Shown here: positions 1-20,448 of the stretch, piece by piece
Numbering within the stretch: position 1 is the stretch's first letter
Layout: each line of letters starts with the position of its first letter
Virus record (IMG/VR): IMGVR_UViG_3300007960_000102
Span: 1 to 31,761 of that record
DNA: 31,761 nucleotides
Reading direction: 5' to 3' (one strand)
Origin: a virus
Position numbers and translations under genes: made by a program
Notes under the pieces: model-generated
Seen by the model: only the letters and a program-made list of their open reading frames with translations
The model's database searches: none
What the model was told of the DNA's origin: nothing

Positions 1-3000
1 ATATTTTCTTCTGGAGATAACTATAAAGTAAATGATAGAGTAGATATTGATATATCTGGTAGTGAAGGAATACAATCAAATATAGTTGTAAGTGAATTAG
101 ACGGAAGAAAAATAGAATCTTTTACTTTAATTGATGATGTAATAACAAACGCAGAATTCTTAATAGGAAATCCAAATACTACTGTACGAACAAGTTCACC
201 TCACCAACTGCAAAATGGCCAACCAGTTTTGATAAGTGGAATATCCACTATTACATCATCTAAGTTTGAAGGTATAAAATTTGTTAATGTTTATGAAAAG
301 AGATCACAATTATCTGAGGACATTGGTGATTCTATTACTACTGGGGTATCCACTTTTATAAAACTGAAGGACATTAGTGGATTTAAAGTTAATGATTTTA
401 TAGGAATAGGTACAGAAGTACTCTTAATTACTAATATTGACCCTAGAAGATCCGGATTTTATGTCAATAGACTTGAAAATGTGGGAGTTCATACAGTTGG
501 AATTGATGATGTAGTTTTATTGCCTACAGAATTTACTATACCAACAATTGGTGTAAATGATGTAACAATTGATAATTATACTACATTTTTTGATCCAAAA
601 TATTCTGTAGGTATTGGTACGAGTGGCTCAATTCGCACTGTTGTTGGATTTGGAACTACATCTTTCGAAACTAGATTTATACCACAAAGAAACATATATT
701 TACCATCTCACAAGTTTTATACTGGCCAGCCATTAATTTATAATTCTGGTTTCGCTGGTACATCATTATATGTTAATAATGTGGGATCTGCATCATCTAT
801 TAAACTACTTGATGATCAAATAGTTTATGCTGTCAATCTTGGTAAAGATTATATAGGGTTATCTACTATTGGATTTACTAGTTCTACAGGGATTGGAACC
901 AATTTTAATTCTTTAGAGTTTTGGGATCAAACTTCTTCTTATGGAATTATTGGAGCAGCTCATTCATTAACTACCATAAATCCAAAAATTACTGGAACCA
1001 TTCAAAATATAATAGGTTTAGTAACTACCAAAACAAATCATAATCTTTCTACCGATGATATTGTAACTCTTAAATTAACTACAGATTATAATGAAGTAGT
1101 CAAAGTTATTTTTGACCCTGTAAATAGAAAAGTTTTAATGAGAGAAATTTCTTTTTCTGATACTGATGTTTCTGTAGAAAGAAGCTCGATAGATATTTCT
1201 TCATATGATGGAAATATTGAAACAGGTGATAAAATTGTCTATGTGGCTACATCTCCCATAAATGGTTTAAGTAATTATGGTGTATATTATGTTTCAAAAA
1301 CAGATTTTAATTCTATAAACCTATGTCAGTATAGGAGTGATATTGATGAATCCAACTTTATTAGTTTTTCTTCAGATGGTGGTGTAGGAACTACGCACAA
1401 ATTATATTTTATTAACCCACAAATTTCATGTCTTAGAACTACAAAGATAGAATTTGATTTGTCCGATAGTAGTTTACTCGACCTCGATTTGCAATTCTAT
1501 TTTGATCCCAACTTCATTCAGAAAATTAATGAAAGAAGTGAATTTTTCGTATTTAGAAGTGGAACTCCAGGAAACTCTGGAGCTAAAGTTGTTTTGGATC
1601 TTTCCTCACAATTTTTCCCAATTTATTATAACTTATTCCCGAAAGGATCTTCAGATGAAAGTAAAAAACAAATATCATCTGATATAGATGTAAAATCTTA
1701 TAATAAAGTTTCTATAGTAAATCACCAACTTAATGACAAATTTAAAATAGTAGTTTCATCGGATAAAGTATTTTCTTTCTATAATACTAAGAAGTTAAGT
1801 TTTGTAGAAAATAATATTATTACGAAAGCCGCTACTAATTTTTCATATAAAACAACCTCTACTAGTGCATTAGGTCCGATATCTAAATTAAAAATTAATT
1901 TCCCAGGTGGAGGATATAAGAAATTGCCAAATATCAGGGGGATAAACAGTTCGTTCGGCAGTAATGCTGTATTAAAAGTAGTATCTCCAAATATTGGAAG
2001 GGTTGAAACTTTTAGTAGAGTTAAAGACGGATTTGATTATCCAACAGATCCAACACTATCACCGTCTCTAAGTGTTCCTACTGTTATTGGAATAAAAGAT
2101 ATAAGAACTATAGATTATATTGGAATAACAACTGGCGGAAAACGATATAATAATTCTCCAAAATTAGTAGTTAAAAATGATACTAGTGGAATTGAACTTA
2201 ATGCTGTAGTATCTGGCGGATCTATAATTTCGGTTGATGTAATTAAAAATTCCACTTCATTATCATCACCATTAGAAATAATTCCAATATATAACTCAAA
2301 TGGATATGAAATTGATTCTATTTCTGTAGCCGGTAATTTAGTGACACTAGAATTACTTAATGATCCCGCTATAAATCCTTATATACCAATCGGATATGGA
2401 ATAACAGATTATATCTACCCATTTAAAATCGGAGATCAAATTTTTATTGAAAATTGTAGACTAACTGATACGACTGCAGATGATTCTAATTATAATTCAT
2501 CTTCGTATAACTATGCATTCTTTGATGTTGTCGGTGTAAACACTAATAATAATACTGTAACATATGACATGACAGGAATTTCTACAGGTTCCTTTGGTAC
2601 ATACAGTGATGAGTTTAACTTGGGGGTTGTCATTAATAGAAATGATATGCCACAATTTGAAATGGTATTAAGAGATGATGTTAATTATATTTCAAATGAA
2701 AAAATCTCCTCAGAAACATTTTCTGGTGTAGTAATGGAAAATGGTTGGGATAATGATCTCAATCAAATGAGATTAAAAAATATTTTCGGAGAAATAAATA
2801 CGGGAGATAAAATATTTGGAGAAACATCAAAAATTAATGGTACTGTTGAATATTTTGATGTATTCAACTTATTTGCTACTTTAGGAGTTTCCAGAGATAA
2901 AACATCTTCAATAGATTTATCCTCTGGTATCTTGAATGACTCTTTACAAAAAATTTCAGATAATTTTTATTATCAAAAGTTTTCATATTCAATTAAAGGA

Positions 3001-6000
3001 AATATTCCATATAATATTTGGAGAGAATCTGTAAGATCTATACTACATCCTTCCGGATTTAAAGAATTTTCTGATTTGGAAATTTTGACAAAACCAACTT
3101 TAAATGAAGTTAATTTGGGTATTGCTAAGTCTACTGACATGAAACCAAGGTTATCATTAACCGATACAGTTACATTAGTTAGTATTGATCAAACAACACC
3201 TATGAGTTTGAGAAACAATTTTGCTAGAGTTTATGAAGAAGAATTATTGCCTGATGGATCTACACAAAACATATACTTGGATGAAGGAATTGATTTAACC
3301 TCTTATATTATTAATAGGACAAATAAAGTTGTTGAAATAGATGACATTAGTGATCAATTTGAAGGATCTTCTTTGCAAGAGTTGGATTCTCGTTTTGCTG
3401 GTGGATCAGATTTATTAGATTCAAATAGACAATTTATCCAAGAAGAAGTTGTAGGATTTATTACTGCAAGATATCCGGGAATTAGTACAAATATTGGTTG
3501 GAGTAGAACAACATTTTATGATAGTATTGGATATATTGTTGACTTCATATCTCACGATGTAAAATATGAGTCAAATAACAAATCTATTGAAGGAGGACTG
3601 GCTTATTGGGCTGGATTAGGTACTAGTTACGTATCAGAAATAACGGATGAAACTATACATGCAATTGGTTATGTAGTTGATCTTTCAAAATATATTATCA
3701 ATAACGTTGGAGTTACTACTTCATATCAACAGGGGTATTCTATTGGGATATCATCGGTGATTTATAACAACTTGACTGGTGTAACGACTGTTTCAACTAC
3801 AACTTCCCATGGATTATCGACAACAACAACCAACTATATTCTCTTAAAAGATCTATCATTCTCATTTGATGCTGGTGCTGGAGTTACTACTGCAATTTTC
3901 CCAAGTTTAAACTTGACTGACGGACCACTATCATATCAGAGATTTGTTTATGAAGTAGAAGTTGTTGATCCCATAAGATTCAGAATAAATGTTGGCCCGT
4001 CCACAATAAATTATAATTATGTTGGCGGAGGTACAGCTGAAAAGTCATTTATATTTGTTGATCAGTATTTTGATGATAGTATTTTGCCAGATTTTGATTG
4101 TAGTCCAGATTACAATGAAAATTGTTATGTCGATGTTCAATCATCAATTATCAATTCCGCTGGAATAATAACTTCAATAATCGGAATCGGAACCACAGCT
4201 GTCCCAACTACAATAACTTATCCTTCTCTTGCTAAAGGTGGATCTGTAGTTGGATTGAGTACCTTTAAACTAAAAAATAAAGGGACTTCACTGTTTAAAC
4301 ATGAGTTTACTGGCAGTTCTATTGATATTATTGAAGAGAAATTTGTAATTCCAAATCACAACTTCCAATCCGGTCAAGAGTTGATATATTCATATTCCAA
4401 TGGAAGTCCTATTGGAATTGCAACTACTTCTTACGTAACTGGCACTGTTGATACACTATTAAATGTATTTGATTATGATGGCACGGCTATTTTAGAAAAT
4501 GGATATAATGTTGCAATTAGTACTACTATTTCCGGAACTGTCGCAACAGGTCCAACTGGAGTTATAGAATATTTCCAAATACCATCAACTACCACAGGCC
4601 TTGGCACTGATGCTGAATTCAGTGTCCTTATTGCATATAGTGGTGGAGGAGTGGCTGTGTCTACAAATATCATTCCCACTTATGGTGGATATGGTTATAG
4701 TGTTGGTGATCAAGTCTCTATTTCTGGAACTCATTTCTCAGGAACAAGCCCAGCTAATGATTTAACATTTAATATTTCTAAGACAGGTCCAACAGTACTA
4801 CAGTCAGAGTCAAATAATAGTTATTCGTCTGTTCCATCTAACGATGCGACTGGAGCAACTTTTGACATCGCTAGAGATTCTGATGGTGCTATTAACTATG
4901 TTAAAGTTTTAAATGGCGGATCTGGTTATAACAATAACTCTGTAATTTCTGTAGCAGGTACTTACATCGGTGGATCAAGTTCCAACGATGATCTATCATT
5001 TAGTCCGTTGGAATTGGGCACTAAAATTTTACCAACATCAGTATTTGTATATAAATTAAACGATAATGAATTTAAACTTTCCGGATTATCTACAAGTGTA
5101 TTTTTCAATATAACCGGAGTAGGAACAGCAACTCATTCGCTGGAGTATAAAGATCCTAATGCTAGTGCAATTATTACAATAGATGGAATAATTCAAAAAG
5201 CAGTGACTAGAAAATCATTAAGTGTATCTTTTGGATCTAGTGTTTCCTCGGCCTCAACCACATTAATTGATATCTCCGCTGGTATTTCATCATTATCTCT
5301 AGGTGATATTATTAATATCGATAATGAATATGTTTCAATTAAAACTATTGGAATAACTTCTGAAAATCAGATAGAGGTTGAACGTGGATATTTTGGTACA
5401 GTTGCTTCAGCACACACGATAGGTGCTGGTGGAACAGTATTATCTGGGGATTTCAATATTGTAGGAGATGTAATATACTTCGATGATCCCCCTAATGGAA
5501 AAATTGGTCCTGTTGGATTGCAAACAGGATCTACATTTAGTGGAAGGGCTTTTAGTAGACAATTTAATCCAGATACTCCAGAAGATAAAAATATTTTATT
5601 TGATGATATATCACTATCCTTTACTGGTGTTGCAGCTACAGAATTTACATTAAAGTCTGGTGGAGAAACTGTCAATACTATTTTTAATAATGTTAATAGT
5701 TCTACAAATATTAATAATAATCCAATAGTATTAATTAATAATGTTTTCCAAAACCCTACTAGTGACCTCACAGTTGACGGAGAGGGAGTAAATGTTATCA
5801 GGTTCTTATCTGGTACTCCAAATTCTGGAAAAATATCAAAAGTTTCTATATCTACAAGTTATGGTTATGCTCCAAGAATTGGAGCAGCTGCTACTGCGGT
5901 AGTTTCTGCTGCCGGAACTATTTCAGATATAATTGTTACTGGATCTGGTTCTGGATATAGAAATCCACCAGTTGTAAGTATTGCATCTACTATTGGATTT

Positions 6001-8895
6001 GGTGGAAGTATAACTGCTACGGTAAGTGCTGCTGGGACTATTTCCGGATTTACCATTGTCAATGCAGGATCTTCATACACAACAACCTCATTACCAGAGG
6101 TTGTTATCGGAATTCCTACTGGTTATAGTAATCTTAATTTGGAGTATACTGGAGGGACTTCTGGAGTAGGCCAAAAGGCAAAACTTACTGTAGAAGTAGG
6201 AATGGGATCAAGTGTAATTGCATATAAGTTTGATCAACCTGGAATTGGATATAAGGTTGGGGATAAACTCACACCTGTTGGAATCGTAACTGATCCACTA
6301 CTTAGTTTTGAACCCTTTGTATTAACCGTAGATGGAGTAGAAACAGATAGTTTCTCTGGATTCTATCCCGGTCAATTTATACAATTTGATGATATTTCAC
6401 AATTCTTCAATGGATTTGCTAAGAAATTTACATTAACAACTACTTTAAATGGAGTTAAACAGGTTTTGGGACTGAGGGTTCCTGATGGAACAGATTTGGA
6501 TATAACAAATAATATCTTTATATACATAAATGATATCTTACAAGTTCCAAATACAGCTTATAGATTCTCTGGAAGTAGAGTAATATTTACCGAAGCTCCT
6601 AAACCAGGTTCTAAGTGTGTTATTCTGTATTACAGAGGTTCTTCCACTGACGTTGAGTTAGTTGATCCACCTAAAACTATTAAACCTGGAGATATAGTCA
6701 CCATACAGGAAAATCCTGAAGATTTATTTGATATTTCTCAATTCGAAAGAGTTGTTAAAAAAATTGCAGCCGCAGATCAATTTGAAACATTTAATTATTA
6801 TTCAGTAGGAATTATTACTGATCCTGCAAAGATTAGACCTCTTTCTTGGCGTAAACAACTTAATGATACGGTAATCAATGGCTCTCTGTATTCCAAATCT
6901 AGACCAAGTTTACAGAGTAATATAAAACCGTTTGCAACAGTCATTAAAAAAATAGAACCCACTGATACAGTGATATATGTTGATAATGCATATCCATTAT
7001 TTACAGATTTTGATAATCTTCCTGAAGATATACGAGATGCATTAATAGTTGAAAATAGAACTGTTAGAGAGTCTTTGGGTCAGGCTGTAGTGTCATCTGC
7101 TTCTACAATTTCATCCATTATTATTAATGATGGCGGAGTTGGATACGCTAATACACAGTCACCTAAAGTAATTATTTCTGAATCATTAATTACTAAAAAG
7201 GATCCAATTTTTAATTGGACTGGAGTTAATGGAATAACCACGTCATATGATTTAAAATCAATCAAATATAACAATAAATTTGTTGCCGTTGGAAATAATT
7301 CTGTATATTCTACCAGCTTTGATGGAATAGATTGGCAGGTTTCTACAGTCGGATTTGGAGTATCTTCTAATTTCAATTCTCTTGAAATTGTGGGAGTTGG
7401 TGTAAGCAATTTCTTAGTTTCTGTAGGAAATTTAGGAAAAGTTATAAAAGCCACAGACTACGGAAATATAATAACTCCATGGACTCAGATTGGATTGGAA
7501 GAAGAGGTTTCAATTCTTGGTCTTGGTGCAGTAAGTAGAGTAGGTAGTGGATATAGTGGAACACTTAATCAGATCGCATACTCAAGTATAACGGATACTT
7601 GGGTTACTGTAGGTACAGCGGGATCAATATTTATGGGTCCCGGAGTAACTACAGAGTCATTTGTAAGTAGATATTCGGAAACTCTATCAGATTTGAATAG
7701 TGTAACTTTTGGAGCCGAATATTTTGTGGCAGTTGGTAATGATGGTGTAATTAGAACTTCCAATGATGGAAATGTCTGGGAATTTGTAAACCCACCGGTA
7801 GCTACTAATTTAAATAAGGTCATTTATGTTGAAGGCAAATATGTTGCTGTTGGAGATTATGGAATAATTGTTAGATCTATAAATAGAAATTCATATGAAA
7901 TTATTTCAAATAATCTTGGGATAGTAAATATAAAAAATATTTACTATAGTTATGGTTTCTATGTAATTATTACATCTTTAGGTGATTTATATTATTCATT
8001 TGATCTAAGTAATTGGATTTATAGATCCACGTCACAACCAAACTTTGTCAATGACTTAGTTTTTGTTGATAATATTGGTTCTGATGGAAGATACGTTGCT
8101 ATAGGATCTGGTGCTACTGCAATATATTCCGAACCTGTATATAATAGAGCTACTGCTATATCTAATATAACTTCTGGAGTGGTTACTTCTATACAGATTG
8201 TAAATTCTGGATTTGGATATGATTCAAATACCCCACCACCAGTAATAATAGAACCAGATAGTTTTAATAATGAATTAATTAGATCTTTAAAAGTTGTCGG
8301 TGATCATGGAATAATTATTGGAGTCACTACATATATTACTGGAACTCCCGGCATAGGAACAACTTCTCCAAAAATTTCGTTTACATTACAATCTGAGCAA
8401 TATGATAATAGTACTCTCGGAATTGGATATTCTAGTTTAAATTCCTTCGGAATTTCTAATAGTCAATTGTCCAAAGGAGATTACTTTGTAATTACTGACA
8501 GTAATGTTGAAACAGGAGGAGACCTAGTTGGAATTACTACACTTCTTGGTGGCATGAGCAATTATCCAAATTCTAAAATTGGTATAGCGAAATCTTTCAT
8601 AGATGGAGTTTATATTGTAGAAGATGTAACTACTCCATCAATTGGAATTGTAACTGTTACATGTAATTTTGCTCCTATGGTGGATAATTATCTTAAAGTT
8701 TATACCAGAGGGTCCAATAATAGTGGAGTTGGAACAAATAATTATTATGGAAGATATAGTTGGGCTAAAATTTATGATTATCAAAATAGAATTTTAGGTG
8801 ACCCAAAAACTTTTGAAGTTTTTAATGACAATGGAATTAATGGAATTTCATCTTCCCCCAAAATTATTAGAACTAGAAATATAATAAGTAAGTAA
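1..8895 (+). CDS. Giant baseplate-region virion structural protein, 5'-truncated (VrlC-like)
   Basis: The frame is open from the first base, so the real start lies left of the window; at least 2964 residues are present. It stands directly before gp8, the place of T4 gene 7 (gp7, 1032 aa), and resembles the very large protein often called VrlC in cyanophages. Visible parts, in window codons: beta-rich repeats with GGxGYxxxPxV motifs (about 635, 715, 1565, 1640, 1985, 2025, 2380, 2738); a helix-rich stretch (about 1115-1255) containing IQEEVVGFITARYPG; an IDNE...RGYFGT...AH module (about 1750-1815); a YVDNAYPLF segment (about 2325); a probable beta-propeller (2406-2713); and a C-terminal YYGRYSWAKIYDYQNR block. 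No signal peptide or membrane segment is seen. A structural role in or around the baseplate wedge is inferred from position and family resemblance; the exact role is unknown. Confidence 0.8.
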   Translation: MFSSGDNYKVNDRVDIDISGSEGIQSNIVVSELDGRKIESFTLIDDVITNAEFLIGNPNTTVRTSSPHQLQNGQPVLISGISTITSSKFEGIKFVNVYEKRSQLSEDIGDSITTGVSTFIKLKDISGFKVNDFIGIGTEVLLITNIDPRRSGFYVNRLENVGVHTVGIDDVVLLPTEFTIPTIGVNDVTIDNYTTFFDPKYSVGIGTSGSIRTVVGFGTTSFETRFIPQRNIYLPSHKFYTGQPLIYNSGFAGTSLYVNNVGSASSIKLLDDQIVYAVNLGKDYIGLSTIGFTSSTGIGTNFNSLEFWDQTSSYGIIGAAHSLTTINPKITGTIQNIIGLVTTKTNHNLSTDDIVTLKLTTDYNEVVKVIFDPVNRKVLMREISFSDTDVSVERSSIDISSYDGNIETGDKIVYVATSPINGLSNYGVYYVSKTDFNSINLCQYRSDIDESNFISFSSDGGVGTTHKLYFINPQISCLRTTKIEFDLSDSSLLDLDLQFYFDPNFIQKINERSEFFVFRSGTPGNSGAKVVLDLSSQFFPIYYNLFPKGSSDESKKQISSDIDVKSYNKVSIVNHQLNDKFKIVVSSDKVFSFYNTKKLSFVENNIITKAATNFSYKTTSTSALGPISKLKINFPGGGYKKLPNIRGINSSFGSNAVLKVVSPNIGRVETFSRVKDGFDYPTDPTLSPSLSVPTVIGIKDIRTIDYIGITTGGKRYNNSPKLVVKNDTSGIELNAVVSGGSIISVDVIKNSTSLSSPLEIIPIYNSNGYEIDSISVAGNLVTLELLNDPAINPYIPIGYGITDYIYPFKIGDQIFIENCRLTDTTADDSNYNSSSYNYAFFDVVGVNTNNNTVTYDMTGISTGSFGTYSDEFNLGVVINRNDMPQFEMVLRDDVNYISNEKISSETFSGVVMENGWDNDLNQMRLKNIFGEINTGDKIFGETSKINGTVEYFDVFNLFATLGVSRDKTSSIDLSSGILNDSLQKISDNFYYQKFSYSIKGNIPYNIWRESVRSILHPSGFKEFSDLEILTKPTLNEVNLGIAKSTDMKPRLSLTDTVTLVSIDQTTPMSLRNNFARVYEEELLPDGSTQNIYLDEGIDLTSYIINRTNKVVEIDDISDQFEGSSLQELDSRFAGGSDLLDSNRQFIQEEVVGFITARYPGISTNIGWSRTTFYDSIGYIVDFISHDVKYESNNKSIEGGLAYWAGLGTSYVSEITDETIHAIGYVVDLSKYIINNVGVTTSYQQGYSIGISSVIYNNLTGVTTVSTTTSHGLSTTTTNYILLKDLSFSFDAGAGVTTAIFPSLNLTDGPLSYQRFVYEVEVVDPIRFRINVGPSTINYNYVGGGTAEKSFIFVDQYFDDSILPDFDCSPDYNENCYVDVQSSIINSAGIITSIIGIGTTAVPTTITYPSLAKGGSVVGLSTFKLKNKGTSLFKHEFTGSSIDIIEEKFVIPNHNFQSGQELIYSYSNGSPIGIATTSYVTGTVDTLLNVFDYDGTAILENGYNVAISTTISGTVATGPTGVIEYFQIPSTTTGLGTDAEFSVLIAYSGGGVAVSTNIIPTYGGYGYSVGDQVSISGTHFSGTSPANDLTFNISKTGPTVLQSESNNSYSSVPSNDATGATFDIARDSDGAINYVKVLNGGSGYNNNSVISVAGTYIGGSSSNDDLSFSPLELGTKILPTSVFVYKLNDNEFKLSGLSTSVFFNITGVGTATHSLEYKDPNASAIITIDGIIQKAVTRKSLSVSFGSSVSSASTTLIDISAGISSLSLGDIINIDNEYVSIKTIGITSENQIEVERGYFGTVASAHTIGAGGTVLSGDFNIVGDVIYFDDPPNGKIGPVGLQTGSTFSGRAFSRQFNPDTPEDKNILFDDISLSFTGVAATEFTLKSGGETVNTIFNNVNSSTNINNNPIVLINNVFQNPTSDLTVDGEGVNVIRFLSGTPNSGKISKVSISTSYGYAPRIGAAATAVVSAAGTISDIIVTGSGSGYRNPPVVSIASTIGFGGSITATVSAAGTISGFTIVNAGSSYTTTSLPEVVIGIPTGYSNLNLEYTGGTSGVGQKAKLTVEVGMGSSVIAYKFDQPGIGYKVGDKLTPVGIVTDPLLSFEPFVLTVDGVETDSFSGFYPGQFIQFDDISQFFNGFAKKFTLTTTLNGVKQVLGLRVPDGTDLDITNNIFIYINDILQVPNTAYRFSGSRVIFTEAPKPGSKCVILYYRGSSTDVELVDPPKTIKPGDIVTIQENPEDLFDISQFERVVKKIAAADQFETFNYYSVGIITDPAKIRPLSWRKQLNDTVINGSLYSKSRPSLQSNIKPFATVIKKIEPTDTVIYVDNAYPLFTDFDNLPEDIRDALIVENRTVRESLGQAVVSSASTISSIIINDGGVGYANTQSPKVIISESLITKKDPIFNWTGVNGITTSYDLKSIKYNNKFVAVGNNSVYSTSFDGIDWQVSTVGFGVSSNFNSLEIVGVGVSNFLVSVGNLGKVIKATDYGNIITPWTQIGLEEEVSILGLGAVSRVGSGYSGTLNQIAYSSITDTWVTVGTAGSIFMGPGVTTESFVSRYSETLSDLNSVTFGAEYFVAVGNDGVIRTSNDGNVWEFVNPPVATNLNKVIYVEGKYVAVGDYGIIVRSINRNSYEIISNNLGIVNIKNIYYSYGFYVIITSLGDLYYSFDLSNWIYRSTSQPNFVNDLVFVDNIGSDGRYVAIGSGATAIYSEPVYNRATAISNITSGVVTSIQIVNSGFGYDSNTPPPVIIEPDSFNNELIRSLKVVGDHGIIIGVTTYITGTPGIGTTSPKISFTLQSEQYDNSTLGIGYSSLNSFGISNSQLSKGDYFVITDSNVETGGDLVGITTLLGGMSNYPNSKIGIAKSFIDGVYIVEDVTTPSIGIVTVTCNFAPMVDNYLKVYTRGSNNSGVGTNNYYGRYSWAKIYDYQNRILGDPKTFEVFNDNGINGISSSPKIIRTRNIISK
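7219..8130 (+). other. Probable seven-bladed Asp-box (BNR-like) beta-propeller domain within the giant virion protein
   Basis: Seven copies of a (F/Y)VAVGxxGxIxxS-like strand pair follow one another: FVAVGNNSVYSTS, FLVSVGNLGKVIKAT, WVTVGTAGSIFMG, FVAVGNDGVIRTS, YVAVGDYGIIVRS, YVIITSLGDLYYS and YVAIGSGATAIYS. Three carry Asp-box-like endings: STSFDGIDW (7309-7335), RTSNDGNVWEF (7753-7785) and YYSFDLSNW (7990-8016). This is the pattern of sialidase/BNR/Ycf48-type propellers, where the SxDxGxxW turn recurs once per blade. In a tail protein such a fold would fit glycan or surface binding, but no catalytic residues of a sialidase can be assigned, so function is inference only. Confidence 0.62.
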
Positions 8896-8928: not shown

Positions 8929-10524
8929 ATGCCAGCCATAATATCAGATCAATTTAGAATTGTAAATGCGGAAAACTTTATAAAAAGTGTTTCTGGGGTG
9001 GGCGATACATCAAATAAATATTACACTTTTATCGGACTACCTAACAGTAATAATTTTGCTGCTGGAGGTTCTCCTACTTGGTCATCCAATACTCCATCTC
9101 CACTTGATGGATTTAAGGAAGAATATCAAGTTAAGGAGAGTATATTAACCTTAAAACAAATTGCAACTCAAGATGTTAGGAGACTTGTTCGAAAAGTTAC
9201 CTGGACAGCTGGAAACACTTATGAAATGTATAGGCATGACTATAGTGTATTTAATGTTACTCCTGTTACTTCCCAAACGAGTCTCTATGAAGCAAATTAT
9301 TATGTAATTAACGAAGATTTGAGAGTTTATATATGTTTACAAAATGGAACTGATCCTGAAAATCCAAAAGGAAGACCATCTTTCGACCAACCAACTTTTA
9401 TTGACTTAGAACCAAGAGCTGCTGGCGCTAGTGGTGATGGATATATTTGGAAATATTTGTATACGATCAAACCATCGGAGATTGTTAAATTTGATTCTAT
9501 TGAATTTATTCCAGTACCAGAAGATTGGGGAAATACTGGGGAATCTATATCCACAAAAAATAATGCAGTTGATGGAAAAATTGAAGTCATTATTATTAAT
9601 GAAAGAGGATCAAATTATCAACCAATTTCTACATCCTTTTCTAATGTTCCTATTTTAGGTGATGGTTCTGGTGGTAAAGCCACGATAACCATTGACTCTT
9701 TTGGAAAAGTTTCCGAAGTATTTGTTACAGATGGCGGAAAGGGGTATACATATGGAACAATTCAGTTTTATCCAGGTGCTCCAGGTTCTGAAGTTACTGG
9801 TCCATTACGCCAACTAAGTAATACTGGTATAGGTACGACATCTGTTGCATCTTTTAACGTCATTATTCCACCAAAGGGTGGTCATGGGTATGATATTTAT
9901 AGAGAGTTGGGAGCATATAGAGTACTATTATATTCCAGATTCGAAACATTGGAAAGTAATCCTGATACTATTTTGGGAAATGATTTTGCCAGGGTTGGGA
10001 TATTAAGAAATCCAACAATAGTTGGAAGTACTAATCAATTACTCGATGTATCTTTAGTTAGTGGATTAAATGCTTTAAAACTATCTGGAGTTACTACTAA
10101 TACAACATATGCTATAGACTCAGAAATAACGCAAACTGTTGGACTTGGTTCTACTGCAATTGGATTTGTATCCTCTTGGGACCCGATAACAGGCGTTTTG
10201 AAGTATTATCAACCAACAGGATTAGCTTCAAGTGAGACTGGATTTAAAATTATTCCATTTACTGCAACTCCAGATGTTGGATATGGATTGACAATTAATT
10301 GTTCATCAATTATTGGTCCAACTTTAGTAATCAACTCCAATTTTAATGGCGTAAGTACAACAATAAATAATAGAATATATCAGTTGGGACAAGAGTTTGT
10401 AGCGGGTATTTCTTCTGCTGAATATAACAAAAAATCCGGTGATATTATCTATTTGGATAATAGACAACCAATTCCCAGATCAGCCAACCAAAAAGAAGAC
10501 ATTAAAATTGTATTGGAGTTCTAA
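8929..10524 (+). CDS. 8: Baseplate wedge protein gp8
   Basis: Homologue of T4 gp8, a dimeric component of the baseplate wedge that works with gp6, gp7, gp10, gp25 and gp53. The strongest signatures are GDGYIWKYLYTI (about residue 167), matching GDGYVWEYLFEI of T4 gp8, and the C-terminus SGDIIYLDNRQPI...KEDIKIVLEF, matching SGEMIYMENRPPI...TEEINILFTF. It has 531 residues against 334 in T4. The extra length is mainly a central beta region (about 215-430) with GGKGYTYGTIQF-type repeats also seen in neighbouring virion proteins. The ATG at 8929 starts the conserved MPAIISDQFRIVNAENF N-terminus, although no good ribosome site is visible before it. It follows the giant gene after 33 nt and is 5 nt from the next gene. 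Confidence 0.93.
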   Translation: MPAIISDQFRIVNAENFIKSVSGVGDTSNKYYTFIGLPNSNNFAAGGSPTWSSNTPSPLDGFKEEYQVKESILTLKQIATQDVRRLVRKVTWTAGNTYEMYRHDYSVFNVTPVTSQTSLYEANYYVINEDLRVYICLQNGTDPENPKGRPSFDQPTFIDLEPRAAGASGDGYIWKYLYTIKPSEIVKFDSIEFIPVPEDWGNTGESISTKNNAVDGKIEVIIINERGSNYQPISTSFSNVPILGDGSGGKATITIDSFGKVSEVFVTDGGKGYTYGTIQFYPGAPGSEVTGPLRQLSNTGIGTTSVASFNVIIPPKGGHGYDIYRELGAYRVLLYSRFETLESNPDTILGNDFARVGILRNPTIVGSTNQLLDVSLVSGLNALKLSGVTTNTTYAIDSEITQTVGLGSTAIGFVSSWDPITGVLKYYQPTGLASSETGFKIIPFTATPDVGYGLTINCSSIIGPTLVINSNFNGVSTTINNRIYQLGQEFVAGISSAEYNKKSGDIIYLDNRQPIPRSANQKEDIKIVLEF

Positions 10525-10529
10525 TAGAA

Positions 10530-13500
10530 ATGGCACAAAACATTAATTTAAATACATCTCCATATTTTGATGATTTTGATCCAAGAAAAAATTATGGAAG
10601 AGTTTTATTTAAGCCAGGAACCCCAATTCAAGCAAGAGAATTAACAACACTCCAATCTATCTTGCAAAATCAGGTTGAAAAGTTTGGTAAACATTTTTTC
10701 AAAGAGGGATCTGTAGTAATACCTGGTGGCATTGCATATGATTCGGAGTACACATGTGTACAAATTGATCCATCTCACTTAAGTATTCCGGTAGAAACTT
10801 ACCTACCATTTTTACTTGGAAAACAAATAAAAGGTGAAAGTAGTGGGGTTTTTGCTAAAATTGAAAATTATATTACTAGTCAAGAGTCTGAAAATGATAC
10901 TTTTACTTTGTATATAAAGTATCAAAGTTCTAGTGAAAGTGATTTTACTTCTAAAACTTTTGTCGATGGTGAAAATTTAATAGTACTGGAAAATATTGAC
11001 TATGGTCTAGGAGTCATTAGATTGGATTCCTCATTTGCAACTACTACAATATCAAATTCTACAGCAATTGGATCTGCAGTAAAAATAGAAGAAGGGGTAT
11101 ATTTTATACGAGGATTTTTTGTAGATGTATTTCCACAAACTATTATATTAGATCAGTATTCCAATTTACCTTCCTATAGAATTGGACTATCTATTTTTGA
11201 AGACATAGCTATACCATCTCAATCAAATCCAGATTTATATGATAATGCAAGGGGATTTTCAAATTTTGCGGCTCCAGGGGCAGATAGACTAAGGATCGTA
11301 GCAACACTGATAAAAAAATCTTTAGATGATTTTAATGATGAAAATTTTGTGGAGTTGATTAGAATTGTAAATGGAAATATCCAAAGAATTCCTAGAAAAG
11401 AGAATATTCCATCACTAATAACTGATGAATTAGCTAGAAGAACTTCTGATGAGTGTGGAGATTACTACGTAACTCCATTTAAAGTTGTTGCTAAAGAATC
11501 ATTAAATGATAAAATAGGAAACAATGGTGTTTATAATCCGAATCAATTGACAAAACAAGGGAATAATCCCTCAGATGAGTTAATAACATTACAAATTTCA
11601 CCCGGAAAAGCATACGTTAAAGGATATGAAGTAGAGACTATTTTAACGGTAAATGCAGACTTAGAAAAACCAAGAACTACTGAAACCGTTAAAGATATAA
11701 CAGTTCCTTTTAGTTTAGGTAATCAAGTAGAACTTAATAATGTTTATGGATCTATTCCAGTTGGATTTGGTTCTACATCTCAAGTGACTTTGTTCTCGGA
11801 GAGAACTGTAACCCCAGGTCTTTCTTCAGGAATTCCAATAGGAGTTGGTAGAGTTTATGATTTAAAATTAAAAAATGCTGAGTATACTGGTGCCTCCACT
11901 ATTTTTGAGACATCGATTTATGATTTACAGACTTATACATATTTGACATTAAATGCTACTACAACTCTCCCTAAACCATCATTCGTTGAAGGAAAAAACA
12001 GCTCAGCTTCTGGATATTTGGTATCATCAGTCACAAACAATAATCAAGTAATATTATATCAAGTTTCTGGAGATTTTATTGTTGGGGAACAATTAAAAGT
12101 TGATGGACAAGATATTTCCAGAACAATAGTTAGTGTTAGAGACTATAATTTAGGTGATATTAAACAATTAGTTGGATACGTTGGATCGACAACATCTTTT
12201 ACAGCCGATACTAGAATATCTATAGGAATTCCCATTGCTCCACAGGGAACTAGTTTTACAATTTCTGCAGGTTCTGGGGGAATAAGTACTGTAACAACTT
12301 CTTCTTCAACTTTTGGTGTTGGAATTAATACAGGAGATATTTTTGTTTATACAAAATCAGGACAAATAGTACCCACTTATAACAGAGTTAACTCTGTAAG
12401 CACTTCTGGCAAGTCTATAACTGTTCAATCAACTACAAGTGTTTCTGGAGTTAGTAGTGGGGGACTACCTACCAGCACCACTGTAACAGATAGTTTGGTA
12501 AAAGGAGTTTCTACACTATTAAATTCTAAAGAATCTTTCATCTTTGCCGAATTACAAAATCCAAATGTTGCTAGTGTTGATGTTTCTAATGCTGAAGTAA
12601 TTTATAGGAAATCATATTCTGTAACAGTTGCGTCAAATGGGTTGACTGCAACTTTAGAGAGTGATACTAATATTACTTTACTGCCATTTGATGAAGAAGA
12701 TTATTCTCTAGTATTTTCTGATGGTACTATTGAAACATTAACTTCCAGTCAATTTACTATTACATCCGGCAGAACTTTAACATTAGTAAATTTAAGTAAG
12801 AATGGTCCTGCAACTTTAACAGCTACTTTAAGAAAAAAAAGATTAAAATCCAGAAAAAAAATCTATAATAGATGTGCAATTTTAGACGTAAGAAATTCTA
12901 GCACTCGTTCATCTGGAGTAGGTGGTACAACTCTTAATGATGGATTAACTTATAATCCATATTATGGAACAAGAGTACAAGATTCCAGAATATCATTGAA
13001 TGTTCCGGACGTAGCTCATGTTGTTGGTGTTTTTGAGTCTTCAAATTCAAGTGATGCAGAGTTGCCAAAACTAGAAGTTGTTGATTTAAATGCGAATATT
13101 TTAAATACTATTAAAGGTGAAATAATTTATGGAGAATCTAGTAATGCGATGGCACTATTTGTTTCAACTAATGGAACAAATCAGTTAGAATTTGTATATA
13201 TTAATGAAAATACTTTTATTAAGGGTGAAAAAATCATATTTAATGAATCAAATGTTAGTGCAAGAATAAGTTATTTGATAGAAGGTGATAGGAATATCAT
13301 ATCTGATTTTATTTTCGATAGTGGCCAAACTTTAGAAATAGTTAATTATTCATCGTTAAGGAGAAAATCTGGTGTTACACCACCAACAAAGAGGTTAAAG
13401 GTAGTATATAGTTATTATTATATAGATTCAAATGATGATGGAGACTTTGTAACGGTCAGTTCATATGAACTAGAAAGATATTCAAGAGATTTGCCAGATA

Positions 13501-16500
13501 TTTTTTACTACAAATCAAGTGATATTATAGACTTAAGACCTAGAGTTATTCCATATGATAGTTCTATAACTCCATTTTCTCCATTTGAATTTGATTCAAG
13601 AAAGTTTTCATCTTCAACAAATTCAAGTCCATATAATTTTGCTAAAGATAGAGACTTACTTTTATCTTATTCATATTATCTAGGTAGAGTTGATAAATTA
13701 TATCTTAATAGATATGGAGAATTCTTTATTACAAAAGGAGTACCATCAAATACTCCAATTCCGCCAAATGATGTTGACAACGCTATGGAAGTAGCTACGA
13801 TTACTATGAATCCATATGTGTACAATATTAAGGATGTTACTGTGAAACTATCTTCACACAAACGTTATAGAATGCAAGATATTTCACAACTTGAAGATAG
13901 GATAAAAAATATTGAATATTATAGCTCATTATCTCTTTTAGAAATTGATACAAAGAATTTATCTATTAGAGATTCCCAAACTCAGTTAGATAGATTTAAG
14001 TGTGGTTTTCTTGTAGATAATTTTAAATCTATACGTTCTGGATCTTTTGGCGATCCTCAACAAAAGTGTAGTGTTGACACTAAAGAAGGATTACTCAGAC
14101 CACAACATTATTCAACAGCAATAGACCTTCTTTTAGCTTCAGAATCCATAGCAGGATTATCAAATATTTCAAATCCAGATGCGGATTTAAGATTTGTAAA
14201 AGATTTGGGAAGTCCAAATACAGTTAAAGTTGGAGATGTAGTTTGTTTGAAATATACCGATGAAGTATTTTTAAAGAATACTTTTGCAACTAGAGTAGAA
14301 AATGTGAATGCATTTAATGTTGTTAACTGGATCGGGTCTATTGAATTAAATCCAACTTCCGATACTTGGATTGAAACTAGATCATCTCAGAGAACCATAG
14401 ACCAAGAAGGAAATTATGAAGCCACACTTAGATCTCTTGGTGCTGATACTAATACTGGATTGTCTCCAATCGATTGGGGTTCTTGGGAAACTACTTGGAC
14501 AGGTGTACGAGAAATTGATAGGCAAAATTTACATAGTATATTCCAAGGAAGTACATATGTTAGTTCCACTGGTAACTGGTGGCTTGAAGAACAAACTTGG
14601 AGAGATCAGTATTTTACATTTAGTAATGTAACCACTCTTACTACTACAGAAGAGTCTAGAAGAGGTGTTCAATATAAGGTTGGTGAAAGAATCGATTCAG
14701 TAAATTTGGGTACTTCCGTGGTATCTACAGACATTATTCATGTAATGAGATCCAGAAATATTGAATTTGTAGCAAAAAGATTAAAACCAAAAACAAGAAT
14801 GTATGCATTTTTCGATAACGTCGATATGAACAAATATATTGTTCCGAAACTTATCGAAATTCAAATGCAAGGTGGTGCTTTTATTGTTGGTGAAACTATT
14901 ATTGGTACATTAGGAAACACTTCTATTAGATTTAGATTGGCAACTGCCAATCATAAGTATGGACCATATAATAATCCAAATCAAGTTTATATCGAAAATC
15001 CATATGTACCTACACAATCAATACCCACTTCTTATTCTACAACATCAACTATACTGAATGTTGACACAGCTTCATTGGAGTTGCAATCTGATTCGACATT
15101 TTATGGCCACATTGTAGAAAATATGCAATTAAGAGGAGTGGTTTCTAGGGCAATTGCAAGAGTAACCAATATTAGATTAATTACTGATACTTCTGGTACA
15201 GTAATTGGATCATTATTTATTCCAAATGCTACATTACCATCTACTCCAACATTTGAAACTGGAACAAAAACTTTTGTTTTAACATCAAGTTCCAGCAATA
15301 CACCGATTATTGGAGCCACAGATAGTGTAGCGGATACTAAATTTAGATCTACAGGAACAATAAACAATACGGAAGAGGTTACTTTAAGGACAAGAAATGC
15401 AGATATAGAAAGAACCCACAGGACGGAAGAAAGAACATTAACTTCAAGAGAAACAACATTAACTGCAGGAACTACATTCCTAGATCGTACTGTAATCCAG
15501 AGAAGATGGGTCGATCCAGTTGCACAATCTTTTGAAGTTCCAGAAGAAACCGGAATGTTTGTTACAAAATGTGATTTGTTCTTCCAAAGTAAAGATACTA
15601 ATAATTTGCCAATTACCATGCAAATTAGAACAATGAAAACTGGTTTGCCCACTCAAACAATTGTTCCTTTTGGTGAAGTTACTTTAGATCCGAGACAAAT
15701 TAACATATCTGAAGATGGCAAAACTCCCACAACATTCACTTTCCCATCTCCGGTCTATCTTGAGAGTGGAAATGATTATTGTATAGCTCTACTTTCTGTA
15801 TCAAATGAATATAATGTTTGGATATCCAGAATGGGTGAAGAAGATGTAACAACCCTGAATTTACCAGAGTCCCAAAAAATAGTTGTGGCGCAACAACCCT
15901 TATTAGGATCGTTGTTTAAATCTCAGAATGGAGCTACATGGGATGCCAGTCAACTAGAAGACTTGAAAATGACTCTTTATAGAGCAAAATTTGTTACCGG
16001 ATCTTCTACGGTTAGATTCCATAATCCAAAACTGGACACAGGTAACAATCAAGTTGTAACTTTGAGACCCAACCCATTAGATTGTATTTCTAAGTCTACT
16101 TTGATTGGATTAGGAAAGAGCTTAACTTCAACTGAAGTTGATGGACTAACACCGGGAACTCCAATATTGCAAAGTAATAATGAACTCTTTAGTTCCAATT
16201 TAAAGAGTATAGTTGGATCTGTGGGAATAGGAAGTACTTTAGTAATAACTTCTTCAGGAATTGGATTTACATCTACATTTAAAACTTACTCCAATGTAAA
16301 CTTGGTTTCTATAACTGGATATGGTTTTGGAGCTAAGGTAAATCTAAGTGTTCAGAACGGAGTTGCTATCGCAGCTACAGTTTCAATTGGGGGAACTGGA
16401 TATGCTTATGGGGATTCGTTAGAAGTTAATTATTCGGAAACAGACGGACTTGGCAATAATTTAATTCTTACTATTCCAAATAATGTTGGTATAATTTCAT

Positions 16501-18014
16501 CATTCAACTCTTTATTGGTAGATAGAGTACAGGGAACTTTAAATAAAAATACTGTGGACAGTTTATATTATGTTGGTTCTTCTGGAACTTCACTTCTTTC
16601 TAGTGCGACTGTAAATACTATAACTGATTTGACTGATGGATTGCACTTCAAAGTCAGCCACAATAATCACGGAATGTATTCGATTGCCGATAGAGTTATA
16701 CTTTCTGGAATTCAACCCGATCAAAAACCAGAAACATTAACATCTTCATATAATTCAACATCTACCGATAGTATTGCAGTAAGTTCTGTTGGAATATTTA
16801 CTAGTTTTGAAAATGTTCCGGTTTCTTCTGTAAATCCTGGATATATTTTAATAGATTATGAAATCATTGAATATACTGGAATTGTCACATCTACCAAAAA
16901 TTTAATTGGAATAACAAGAAATATTGATAATACAGTTTCTGGATCTTATGACATCGATTCGTCAATCTTCAAATATGAATTAAATGGAGTGTCATTGAGA
17001 AGAATAAATAAAACTCATAATCTGTCTGACACCAATTTAGTTACTTATCCAACGGATCTAGATTATTATTATGTTAAAGTTGGAATGAGTAGTAGAGGTA
17101 TTGATAGAACTCCAGATAATGTTCTTGGATATCCTGCTCTATATTTCAAAGATGATAAATCTTGTGGGTCATATGATACAGTTCAGGCTTTAGGATCACC
17201 TAAAGTCCCCAAAGCGACACAAAATATACCATTCAATATAATTAGACCGAATATTCAAACATTATTACCTCAACAAACATCAATATCAGCAAAGGCAAGA
17301 ACTTTCAGTGGTTCTAGCCCAGATGGGGATTTAGTACCATTTTTGGATCAAGGATTTGTTGATGTACCATTGAACTCGAATACCGAATTTAGTTCACCCA
17401 GAATCATTTGTTCTCAAATCAATGAGGAAACTTATTTGTCAAGTTTCCCTGGTAAAAAGTCATTTACCATGGAACTAACAATGTCATCTCAGAATGATTA
17501 TGTTTCTCCAATGATCGACCTGGATAGGGTAAGTTTGATCACTGTTTCTAACAGAATAAACTCTAAAGTTACGGATTATGCTAATGATGCGAGAGTGAAC
17601 TCTCTGACTGATGATCCAACGGCAGCAGTTTATTTGAGTAGTCCTGTTTTATTGGATAAGTCAGCTGATACTTTGAAAGTATTTTTTGAGGCTTTCCGAC
17701 ATTCAACTAATGATATTAGATTGTGTTATAGAATCTTTAGGTCCGATTCTCCTTCAGAATCTCAACTTTGGCAATTATTCCCAGGATATGACAATCTGGA
17801 TGCAAATTTACAAGTGATTGATTCTTCTAAGAATAATGGAAGACCCGATAAAAATGTCTTAAGTTCTAAATTTGAAAATAATTTCAATTCTTATGAATTT
17901 ACTGCTTCCAATTTACCACAGTTTAATGGATTCCAAATTAAAATTCTAATGTCCGGAACTAATTCAGCATTTACTCCAAAAATTAGAGACTTTAGAGCTA
18001 TTGCAACCATCTAA
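10530..18014 (+). CDS. DUF4815-family giant virion protein (baseplate/fibre periphery)
   Basis: The N-terminus (NTSPYFDDFDPRKNYGRVLF, then PIQARELTTLQSILQNQVEK) is the hallmark of DUF4815 proteins of T4-like marine phages. These virion proteins follow gp8 in the place of T4 genes 9-12. At 2494 residues it is very long. Further landmarks: beta modules of the GExIxGxxS type (LLGKQIKGESSG, FIVGETIIGTLG); a charged segment near residue 1630 (ERTHRTEERTLTSRETT); then QRRWVDPVAQSFEVPEETG and KCDLFFQSKD (about 1655-1690), which begin a conserved beta-sandwich-like domain; an IDYE...TRNIDNT module near 2110; and a C-terminal block ending in FTPKIRDFRAI. A GGAG-like site (10515-10518) precedes the ATG, 5 nt after gp8, suggesting co-expression. 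A tail-fibre or baseplate-edge role is inferred. Confidence 0.85.
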   Translation: MAQNINLNTSPYFDDFDPRKNYGRVLFKPGTPIQARELTTLQSILQNQVEKFGKHFFKEGSVVIPGGIAYDSEYTCVQIDPSHLSIPVETYLPFLLGKQIKGESSGVFAKIENYITSQESENDTFTLYIKYQSSSESDFTSKTFVDGENLIVLENIDYGLGVIRLDSSFATTTISNSTAIGSAVKIEEGVYFIRGFFVDVFPQTIILDQYSNLPSYRIGLSIFEDIAIPSQSNPDLYDNARGFSNFAAPGADRLRIVATLIKKSLDDFNDENFVELIRIVNGNIQRIPRKENIPSLITDELARRTSDECGDYYVTPFKVVAKESLNDKIGNNGVYNPNQLTKQGNNPSDELITLQISPGKAYVKGYEVETILTVNADLEKPRTTETVKDITVPFSLGNQVELNNVYGSIPVGFGSTSQVTLFSERTVTPGLSSGIPIGVGRVYDLKLKNAEYTGASTIFETSIYDLQTYTYLTLNATTTLPKPSFVEGKNSSASGYLVSSVTNNNQVILYQVSGDFIVGEQLKVDGQDISRTIVSVRDYNLGDIKQLVGYVGSTTSFTADTRISIGIPIAPQGTSFTISAGSGGISTVTTSSSTFGVGINTGDIFVYTKSGQIVPTYNRVNSVSTSGKSITVQSTTSVSGVSSGGLPTSTTVTDSLVKGVSTLLNSKESFIFAELQNPNVASVDVSNAEVIYRKSYSVTVASNGLTATLESDTNITLLPFDEEDYSLVFSDGTIETLTSSQFTITSGRTLTLVNLSKNGPATLTATLRKKRLKSRKKIYNRCAILDVRNSSTRSSGVGGTTLNDGLTYNPYYGTRVQDSRISLNVPDVAHVVGVFESSNSSDAELPKLEVVDLNANILNTIKGEIIYGESSNAMALFVSTNGTNQLEFVYINENTFIKGEKIIFNESNVSARISYLIEGDRNIISDFIFDSGQTLEIVNYSSLRRKSGVTPPTKRLKVVYSYYYIDSNDDGDFVTVSSYELERYSRDLPDIFYYKSSDIIDLRPRVIPYDSSITPFSPFEFDSRKFSSSTNSSPYNFAKDRDLLLSYSYYLGRVDKLYLNRYGEFFITKGVPSNTPIPPNDVDNAMEVATITMNPYVYNIKDVTVKLSSHKRYRMQDISQLEDRIKNIEYYSSLSLLEIDTKNLSIRDSQTQLDRFKCGFLVDNFKSIRSGSFGDPQQKCSVDTKEGLLRPQHYSTAIDLLLASESIAGLSNISNPDADLRFVKDLGSPNTVKVGDVVCLKYTDEVFLKNTFATRVENVNAFNVVNWIGSIELNPTSDTWIETRSSQRTIDQEGNYEATLRSLGADTNTGLSPIDWGSWETTWTGVREIDRQNLHSIFQGSTYVSSTGNWWLEEQTWRDQYFTFSNVTTLTTTEESRRGVQYKVGERIDSVNLGTSVVSTDIIHVMRSRNIEFVAKRLKPKTRMYAFFDNVDMNKYIVPKLIEIQMQGGAFIVGETIIGTLGNTSIRFRLATANHKYGPYNNPNQVYIENPYVPTQSIPTSYSTTSTILNVDTASLELQSDSTFYGHIVENMQLRGVVSRAIARVTNIRLITDTSGTVIGSLFIPNATLPSTPTFETGTKTFVLTSSSSNTPIIGATDSVADTKFRSTGTINNTEEVTLRTRNADIERTHRTEERTLTSRETTLTAGTTFLDRTVIQRRWVDPVAQSFEVPEETGMFVTKCDLFFQSKDTNNLPITMQIRTMKTGLPTQTIVPFGEVTLDPRQINISEDGKTPTTFTFPSPVYLESGNDYCIALLSVSNEYNVWISRMGEEDVTTLNLPESQKIVVAQQPLLGSLFKSQNGATWDASQLEDLKMTLYRAKFVTGSSTVRFHNPKLDTGNNQVVTLRPNPLDCISKSTLIGLGKSLTSTEVDGLTPGTPILQSNNELFSSNLKSIVGSVGIGSTLVITSSGIGFTSTFKTYSNVNLVSITGYGFGAKVNLSVQNGVAIAATVSIGGTGYAYGDSLEVNYSETDGLGNNLILTIPNNVGIISSFNSLLVDRVQGTLNKNTVDSLYYVGSSGTSLLSSATVNTITDLTDGLHFKVSHNNHGMYSIADRVILSGIQPDQKPETLTSSYNSTSTDSIAVSSVGIFTSFENVPVSSVNPGYILIDYEIIEYTGIVTSTKNLIGITRNIDNTVSGSYDIDSSIFKYELNGVSLRRINKTHNLSDTNLVTYPTDLDYYYVKVGMSSRGIDRTPDNVLGYPALYFKDDKSCGSYDTVQALGSPKVPKATQNIPFNIIRPNIQTLLPQQTSISAKARTFSGSSPDGDLVPFLDQGFVDVPLNSNTEFSSPRIICSQINEETYLSSFPGKKSFTMELTMSSQNDYVSPMIDLDRVSLITVSNRINSKVTDYANDARVNSLTDDPTAAVYLSSPVLLDKSADTLKVFFEAFRHSTNDIRLCYRIFRSDSPSESQLWQLFPGYDNLDANLQVIDSSKNNGRPDKNVLSSKFENNFNSYEFTASNLPQFNGFQIKILMSGTNSAFTPKIRDFRAIATI

Positions 18015-18284: not shown

Positions 18285-18617
18285 ATGGCGGCAAGAAATG
18301 TAAACTTAATTCTTGAACAAGGGGTTGATTTTCAAGCCACCTTTACTATCAGGAACACTAATAATGCACCATTAAATTTGACCGGATATACCGGAATCTC
18401 ATCAATCAGAAAACATCCTACATCTTCTACCGCATACCCTTTAACACTTTCTTTTACCGATAGATTAAATGGGAAAATTGCAGTTTCTATGGGATATACT
18501 GCAACAGATGCAATTGAAGGTGGTCGTTATGTTTATGATGTTATTCTTATTTCACCTAATTCTTACAGAACCCGAGCTGTTCAGGGAAACGTTCTGGTAA
18601 CTCCAGGAGTATCATAA
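18285..18617 (+). CDS. Small virion structural protein, beta-sandwich-like
   Basis: A 110-residue protein starting MAARNVNLILEQGVDFQATF, with an LNLTGYTG motif (about residues 32-38) and alternating strands to the end (GGRYVYDVILISP). The pattern resembles small Ig-like or baseplate-upper-protein N-terminal domains in phage tails, and such proteins are common in cyanophage structural blocks. A late-type box and a CGGA ribosome site precede it. Its TAA overlaps the next ATG (TAATG), so the two are probably translated together. Precise role unknown. Confidence 0.72.
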   Translation: MAARNVNLILEQGVDFQATFTIRNTNNAPLNLTGYTGISSIRKHPTSSTAYPLTLSFTDRLNGKIAVSMGYTATDAIEGGRYVYDVILISPNSYRTRAVQGNVLVTPGVS

Positions 18618-19294
18618 TGACCGATTACTTAGTAACTTTAAATGAACCAGGACCCTATAGAATTGGCGTTGACTATGAAATTCCAACTAAATCTATTCAA
18701 TATGGGAATATTATTCTCGATAGTATAAACTCAGAATTTAATGGAATTGTCCAGACTTTTAGTTTATTTTCAAATGGAAATCCATATGTTCCTATTAATG
18801 ATCAACAATTAATTGTTGTTAAAAATAATCTTATGATGAAACCAATTGAGGACTATACTATATCTACAAATAATATAACTTTTAGTACATCTCCAAACTC
18901 CGGAGATGATGTTTTTATTATAGCTCTTGCATCAACAGCGGATTTGACTAGAACTATTAACTATGTGGTAGATAGTGGATCTATAGATATGTTGCCTGGA
19001 AATAAGGGGTCTATTACTTTGGATGTAAGTGGGGTCATAGAATCATTAGTTATTTTATCGGATCAACAGGGTGATTTAACTTTAGACATAAAAAAATCAA
19101 ATTATTTAACATTCCCAACTTTTACTTCAATAGTTGGTGGGGCTTATCCACAAATAAATAATCAAATAAAAGTTCGTGACGATGATTTAACTAATTGGAC
19201 AAAAAGTATAGTAGCGGGAGATATTTTGTCATTTGATGTTATTGCGGTCAATAATATCAATAGATTTTTGATCTCATTAAAATTAAAATTATAA
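18617..19294 (+). CDS. Tail/fibre-associated virion protein of 225 aa
   Basis: Beta-rich protein with a repeated phage-fibre module: QYGNIILDSINSEFNGIVQT, DQQLIVVKNN, SGDDVFIIALASTADLTRTI, then GNKGSITLDVSGVIESLVIL and a C-terminal TNWTKSIVAGDILSF...NRFLISLKLKL block. These segments recur in cyanophage tail and fibre proteins, which supports a virion role, though the partner is unknown. The ribosome site AGGAG (18605-18609) lies inside the upstream gene, and the ATG overlaps that gene's stop by one base. Confidence 0.72.
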   Translation: MTDYLVTLNEPGPYRIGVDYEIPTKSIQYGNIILDSINSEFNGIVQTFSLFSNGNPYVPINDQQLIVVKNNLMMKPIEDYTISTNNITFSTSPNSGDDVFIIALASTADLTRTINYVVDSGSIDMLPGNKGSITLDVSGVIESLVILSDQQGDLTLDIKKSNYLTFPTFTSIVGGAYPQINNQIKVRDDDLTNWTKSIVAGDILSFDVIAVNNINRFLISLKLKL

Positions 19295-19297
19295 ATA
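19290..19297 (+). promoter_or_regulatory. T4-type late promoter box TATAAATA
   Basis: Perfect match to the T4 late box TATAAATA, overlapping the TAA stop (19292-19294) of the preceding gene and lying about 40 nt before the ATG at 19338. Transcripts starting near 19303 would carry a 35-nt leader with a CGGAG ribosome site. Confidence 0.65.
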
Positions 19298-19337
19298 GTG
19301 ATATCAAGAAACATTATAGTTTGTACGGAGTTTTTAA

Positions 19338-20345: not shown

Positions 20346-20382
20346 CACATTAGAAGATAATTTAAATATTAATAATTTCTGT

Positions 20383-20420
20383 GGAGGATCCTTTTTTTAT
20401 GGCATCCTCCTATTTTTTTT
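20383..20420 (+). terminator. Rho-independent terminator after the 335-aa gene
   Basis: GGAGGATCC (20383-20391) pairs with GGCATCCTCC (20401-20410) with one bulged base, loop TTTTTTTAT, followed by TATTTTTTTT. A strong GC stem plus T-run is unusual in this AT-rich block. It separates the baseplate-type genes on the left from the beta-repeat gene. Confidence 0.85.
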
Positions 20421-20448
20421 CTAAAAAAGTTGTTACAGATCAGTATCA

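Follow-up and report, generated by a model that had tools for sequence, protein, structure and literature searches.

A predicted seven-bladed beta-propeller inserted into the gp7-type baseplate wedge protein of one cyanophage clade

What is a beta-propeller doing in the middle of a giant baseplate protein? The stretch of DNA analyzed here (the window) is a 31.8-kb linear virus record, IMG/VR record IMGVR_UViG_3300007960_000102, positions 1-31,761, which encodes a T4-like structural cluster according to its list of open reading frames (ORFs) and its matches in Pfam and PHROGs. On the + strand, frame 1 stays open through position 8895 from the very first base and encodes a gp7-type baseplate wedge protein. 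A preliminary description, made from the letters of the window alone, had pointed out seven consecutive blade-like units at 7219-8130 of this frame and had suggested an adhesin built into the baseplate. The locus raises two questions, whether the propeller exists and what it would do there.

The seven blade-like units lie between codons 2415 and 2713. The core pattern (F/Y/W)V(A/T)VG matched 5 times within codons 2407-2710 and not once in the other 2660 residues of gp7, while shuffles of the segment gave a mean of 0.12 matches and a maximum of 3. When hidden Markov models (HMMs) were built from one blade each, all seven scored another blade above the best of 25 shuffles, with wide margins for blades 1, 4, 5, and 7 and narrow ones for blades 2, 3, and 6. 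AlphaFold2, supplied with an alignment of 49 homologues (A2), returned a confident seven-bladed propeller (mean predicted local distance difference test score, pLDDT, 90.5; predicted TM-score, pTM, 0.84) with four strands per blade in blades 1-6 and three in blade 7. The strands were identical in a second AlphaFold model of 908 residues. VIA-align superposed the model over residues of about 47-362, equivalent to window positions 7192-8139, on seven-bladed propellers with Z of about 28 and a root-mean-square deviation of 2.6-3 Å over 280-300 residues. The top Foldseek match was Ycf48 (E 7e-10, 16% identity), and the closest predicted viral structure was gp7 of S-SSM7, the top match in BFVD (TMq 0.88). 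With a confident model that superposes on solved structures, codons 2398-2713 of this gp7-type wedge protein are predicted to be a seven-bladed beta-propeller, with the following parts.

1..8895, + strand: giant gp7-type baseplate wedge protein, 2964 aa seen, 5' end beyond the window (phrog_2885 and related profiles; gp8 adjacent)
7192..8139, + strand: seven-bladed beta-propeller domain, codons 2398-2713 (AlphaFold2, VIA-align, Foldseek, family HMM alignment)
7207..7227, + strand: N-terminal segment IFNWTGV with an invariant Trp; short strand at model residues 56-59 (DSSP line)
7243..7365, + strand: blade 1, ending in SFDGIDW (this and the other blades from AlphaFold2 strands and one-blade HMMs)
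7366..7524, + strand: blade 2, a longer outer strand followed by a hairpin
7555..7686, + strand: blade 3
7687..7803, + strand: blade 4, ending in SNDGNVW
7804..7923, + strand: blade 5, ending in SINRNSY
7924..8040, + strand: blade 6, ending in SFDLSNW
8041..8139, + strand: blade 7, three strands

The Trp of the IFNWTG segment was invariant in both alignments (W20 in A1, W55 in A2), and the order of the strands suggests that this segment probably supplies the missing outer strand of blade 7, a 'velcro' closure. The seven consecutive units and the seven-bladed propeller within a giant wedge-region protein were thus borne out, the latter by the structure prediction and fold search that the preliminary description had itself proposed as a check, and its domain bounds were nearly right, the aligned domain (7192-8139) being slightly wider than 7219-8130.

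The match to phrog_2885 (E 0) and the position directly before gp8 identify the protein as a cyanophage-type gp7. The S-SSM7 homologue carries the gp7 annotation, and the full homologue in S-SCSM2R is a single 15.5-kb ORF (L319:124-15642). In S-SSM7 the same region (L320:562-19656) is divided into several genes with an extra virion protein between them. Any relation to gp7 of T4 itself would be distant. T4 gp7 residues 856-897 gave a short and weak local match to window residues 991-1030 (BLAST E 0.012), T4 gp7 also matched the start of phrog_2885, and hhalign of the propeller profile and of the N-terminal flank against T4 gp7 showed no homology. Because the last T4-like stretch lies at residues 991-1030, the propeller would fall about 1400 residues downstream of it, in the cyanophage-type extension. 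Blade-like stretches and one Asp-box, SNDKGQTW, were seen in T4 gp7 (L183:5061-8159), by eye only; if T4 gp7 already holds a propeller, the gp7 placement would be less novel.

The propeller is bordered on both sides by a short repeat, and the features at its edges are as follows.

7075..7176, + strand: first flanking GGxGY..PxVxI repeat, three strands, just upstream of the propeller (AlphaFold2 strands 8-41); also in propeller-less gp7 proteins
8152..8250, + strand: second flanking GGxGY..PxVxI repeat, directly downstream of the propeller (AlphaFold2 strands 367-399; alignments)
8251..8892, + strand: C-terminal gp7 module, common to propeller-less gp7 proteins (tblastn, alignment A4)
8929..10524, + strand: gp8 baseplate wedge protein (PF09215, 44 bits; phrog_438, E 5e-158)

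A tblastn search with 8191-8892 found matches in cyanophages both with and without a propeller. In S-SM2, Bellamy, SynMITS9220M01, B23, P-SSM2, S-T4, and ACG-2014f, two equivalent repeats adjoin through a short linker and no propeller is present. In the loci without a propeller, the family HMM matched nothing at E<1 along the gp7 frame; the only matches below 1 there were chance ones on the opposite strand of one locus (L174). Likewise, phrog_2885 aligns with the N-terminal flank almost to its own C-terminus and includes no propeller. Judged from these alignments, the propeller is a domain insertion into gp7 between two GGxGY repeats. In the window's family about 230-245 residues separate it from the C-terminus of gp7; with divergent members and partial matches included, the distance is 203-300 residues. 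The GGxGY..PxVxI module also recurs elsewhere in gp7, in gp8, in gp14 (23021-24454; four copies), and in the DUF4815 protein, as if it were a mobile structural module.

The family HMM found the propeller in S-SSM7, Sf-FS3, S-SCSM2R, S-CAM9, S-8S55, DSL-LC03, and DSL-LC02. The first five carry it in gp7 at the identical site, the closer ones with 35-41% identity, and in their records this protein is called simply gp7, wedge initiator, YHYH protein, or large exoprotein. One profile scan of IMG/VR yielded 285 relatives, and further scans added a marine S-SSM7-like set. Two viral contigs (L168 and L169) encode proteins of more than 4000 aa with weaker propeller-profile matches in mid-protein and no gp7 C-terminal tail. 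The locus from IMGVR 3300049043_000117 (L017) was excluded from the alignments on account of the many frameshifts in its gp7; its gp8 and DUF4815 frames are also broken many times, and it is probably an error-prone long-read assembly.

We used gp8, whose relatives among the matches listed come mostly from T4-like phages of Synechococcus and Prochlorococcus, as an independent marker gene. In the gp8 tree all 22 propeller-bearing rows fell into one clade with support of 100/100, and the propeller-less rows fell outside it. AG-345-D19, which has no propeller, also lay outside, so that one change suffices instead of two. Since the IMG/VR rows of the first survey had been found through the propeller, the survey was repeated with gp8 as bait, blind to gp7 content. 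The propeller was present in 107 of the 107 loci with enough upstream sequence, a sample that shares 54% or more gp8 identity with the window and therefore covers the propeller clade and not its sister groups. The most likely history is a single gain in the ancestor of the clade followed by vertical inheritance. A single gain is the simplest reading of the tree, and loss in the sister groups may be the alternative. A scan of genome contigs for a cellular origin found only distant bacterial propellers with 23-35% identity, plus one contig (L321) at 40% over the full domain, and named no cellular donor. That contig, NZVE01000039.1, is 50 kb long, is filed under a Rhodobacteraceae metagenome-assembled genome, and encodes the gp7 propeller; it is probably a cyanophage contig that was binned wrongly.

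Within the clade the propeller changes quickly and stays with its protein. Among 33 homologues the mean p-distance was 0.54 for the propeller, 0.43 for the N-terminal flank, and 0.42 for the C-terminal tail. The pairwise distances of the propeller correlated with those of the flank (r 0.94) and the tail (r 0.90), which indicates that the domain has descended together with gp7 and has not been exchanged among phages. In comparison with S-SCSM2R and S-SSM7, identity is 35-36% for the propeller, the least conserved segment of gp7, and 41-60% for the remainder of the protein; in the same two comparisons gp8 is 76-79% and the fibre-adaptor-like protein 74-75% identical. Only the gene at 20449-22152 is less conserved than the propeller (23-29%). 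Such faster change would suit an exposed surface facing a varying partner, and relaxed constraint would look alike.

What the propeller would do in the virion has to be weighed against the genes downstream of the wedge region.

10530-18014: DUF4815 protein
18285-20345: fibre-associated proteins
19338-20345: fibre-adaptor-like protein, conserved among clade members
20449-22152: variable 567-aa protein, putative fibre gene
23021-24454: gp14
Downstream of 20449-22152, in order: neck proteins (phrog_211, phrog_460), tail sheath stabilizer, terminase small and large subunits, tail sheath

The stretch 18285-22152 encodes a relative of L-shaped-fibre-assembly proteins together with an adaptor-like protein, the homologue of a gene that carries the annotation 'tail fiber rope protein', and the variable protein of 20449-22152. 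In S-SCSM2R this locus has homologues labelled 'tail fiber rope protein' and 'tail adaptor protein', and 18285-22152 is likely a separate fibre region. The variable protein has no match in Pfam or PHROGs. Its identity to its positional counterparts is 23-29%, against 55-79% for the neighbouring proteins, and its gene is probably the real variable gene for host recognition. At the position of this gene S-SCSM2R has a 1369-aa protein annotated 'TolB' (L319:27253-31362). It contains FG-GAP repeats (E 5e-43) and is a second protein with propeller-type repeats, here in the fibre region. Elsewhere in the window, a 654-aa lysine- and glutamate-rich protein matching phrog_727 and other families is encoded at 25982-27946, between the terminase small and large subunit genes.

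We infer that the propeller is an exposed platform because it is inserted between repeats that are otherwise joined. Placed there, it would project from the wedge as a rigid platform that binds without enzymatic activity, and each copy of gp7 would carry one. As the baseplate comes to rest on the cell, the propeller would make a secondary contact with the host surface, for example with envelope polysaccharide, and would do so alongside separate tail fibres without replacing them. We lean slightly toward this reading over a docking role and give it a probability of about 0.5. The high divergence of the propeller, exceeded only by that of the putative fibre gene, is what would be expected of an exposed domain facing a partner. 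Propellers with a proven or proposed role in receptor binding include phi11 Gp45, PRD1 P2, and PhiKZ gp131C (PMC4901313). The seven-bladed propeller of PhiKZ gp131C (PDB 4GBF) sits at the edge of a myophage baseplate and has been speculated to bind a receptor (PMC4901313); it is a domain of a different protein, not gp7, and is likened here by description. It did not appear among the Foldseek or VIA-align matches listed, an absence that carries no weight. phi11 Gp45 presents a propeller from the baseplate and is a proposed binder of cell-wall N-acetylglucosamine (PMC4901313), but that propeller has five blades and belongs to a separate trimeric receptor-binding protein on a stem.

Several results weigh against a host-contacting role. 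The window has separate fibre-like genes of its own, and the suggestion in the preliminary description that the propeller stands in for a separate fibre is not supported, given the candidate fibre locus at 18285-22152. The propeller was present in every one of the gp8-selected loci, and the test for module swapping showed no incongruence, unlike many host-range adhesins; thus neither swapping nor presence and absence among close relatives was seen, marks that are frequent in host-range modules without being obligatory. Site entropy by strand and loop class, analyzed without coordinates, revealed no outstanding face, conserved or hypervariable, and no conserved ligand pocket.

The strongest alternative is that the propeller is a structural or docking platform within the virion, which holds a clade-specific fibre, adaptor, or wedge partner or spaces the wedges, and never touches the host. 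We consider this a serious contender at somewhat less than even odds. Fast divergence fits binding, and a structural or docking role would suit at least equally well a domain that is universally present and not swapped. The domain is fixed in the clade and inherited vertically with its flanks, and clade members retain the fibre-adaptor-like protein downstream. There is also a precedent in the nozzle protein of SU10, whose core is a seven-bladed propeller with a dock loop in blade 1 that attaches the short tail fibre (PMC9509320). The nozzle proteins of SU10 and T7 resemble the gp7 case in that a propeller serves as a structural part of a tail protein; they differ in being part of a podovirus nozzle and not a myovirus wedge, and the likeness is one of description. 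A docking surface, however, would usually be better conserved, and the propeller diverges faster than the rest of gp7 and the neighbouring wedge proteins. Moreover, the propeller-less relatives assemble without one.

Many Asp-box propellers are glycosidases. The domain could in principle be an enzyme, sialidase-like or another glycan hydrolase, that cuts host-surface polysaccharide, and propellers do occur in some phage endosialidases (PMC4901313). The blade ends of the gp7 propeller are seven-residue SxDxxxW motifs (SFDGIDW, SNDGNVW, and SFDLSNW), with a fourth, SINRNSY, ending in Tyr. The three endings noted earlier were therefore there, in a form one residue shorter than the SxDxxxxW that had been described. 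The canonical eight-residue Asp-box (SxDxGxTW) was absent from the window and occurred in only 3 of the 49 homologues, and we rejected a textbook Asp-box identity for the blade motif. There was no FRIP-type motif ([FY]R[IV][PS]) in the window, searches of Pfam, NCBIfam, and PHROGs matched no family of glycosidases, and the invariant columns do not include an acidic pair plus an arginine triad. We regard an enzymatic role as very improbable.

That the phage carries a functional Ycf48 homologue, a factor for photosystem II assembly, as an auxiliary metabolic module is more improbable still. Ycf48 (PDB 5oj5, 2xbg) is likewise a seven-bladed propeller with a related blade motif and gave the best Foldseek E-values. 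The window domain scored 20.3-21.3 bits against PSII_BNR (PF14870), below the curated cut-off of 27, and the DSL-LC03 homologue scored 29.2 bits, above it. However, the domain shares only 16% identity with Ycf48 and is embedded midway in a giant virion baseplate protein. Sequence searches of the PDB with the domain and the family profiles gave no meaningful match and no Ycf48 chain, NCBIfam had no match for the domain, and PHROGs had no family covering the propeller itself. VIA-align also placed WD40 propellers at Z 28, so that the similarity is one of fold. Of the kinship with Ycf48/BNR-type repeats that had been proposed, the Ycf48-like fold thus stands, and canonical membership in the BNR/Asp-box family is not supported. 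A 'photosystem II assembly factor' label on a phage propeller can accordingly stem from the fold alone. In DSL-LC01 a propeller annotated 'photosynthesis system II assembly factor' (L027:5995-6867) matches the profile of the gp7 propeller at E 5e-30. Its neighbours are collagen-like structural genes, and it seems to be a protein of the tail region and not a metabolic one.

Finally, although gp7 is rich in short repeats and in V, G, S, and T, the idea that the motifs are a chance or low-complexity pattern is already refuted by the confident AlphaFold2 model, the VIA-align Z, the pattern counts against shuffles, and the cross-matches between blades.

Propellers in phage tails and baseplates were already known. 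A literature search with partial coverage of the journals turned up no description of a propeller inserted here in gp7 and fixed in a single cyanophage clade, and it is this placement that appears to be new. A bolder picture, in which the clade, through a single acquisition of the propeller, has turned gp7 into a receptor-contacting organ, a ring of lectin-like heads built into the baseplate that senses the cyanobacterial surface and helps trigger contraction, seems doubtful to us.

Little is known about the receptors of cyanomyoviruses or the devices with which these phages adsorb. The propeller is a compact, foldable domain that is present in every sampled member of the clade, including the cultured isolates S-SSM7, S-CAM9, S-8S55, S-SCSM2R, and Sf-FS3, and is absent from the sister group. 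Since the domain is compact and the clade is in culture, it can be expressed directly and tested for surface binding, and the relatives with and without the propeller offer a natural comparison.

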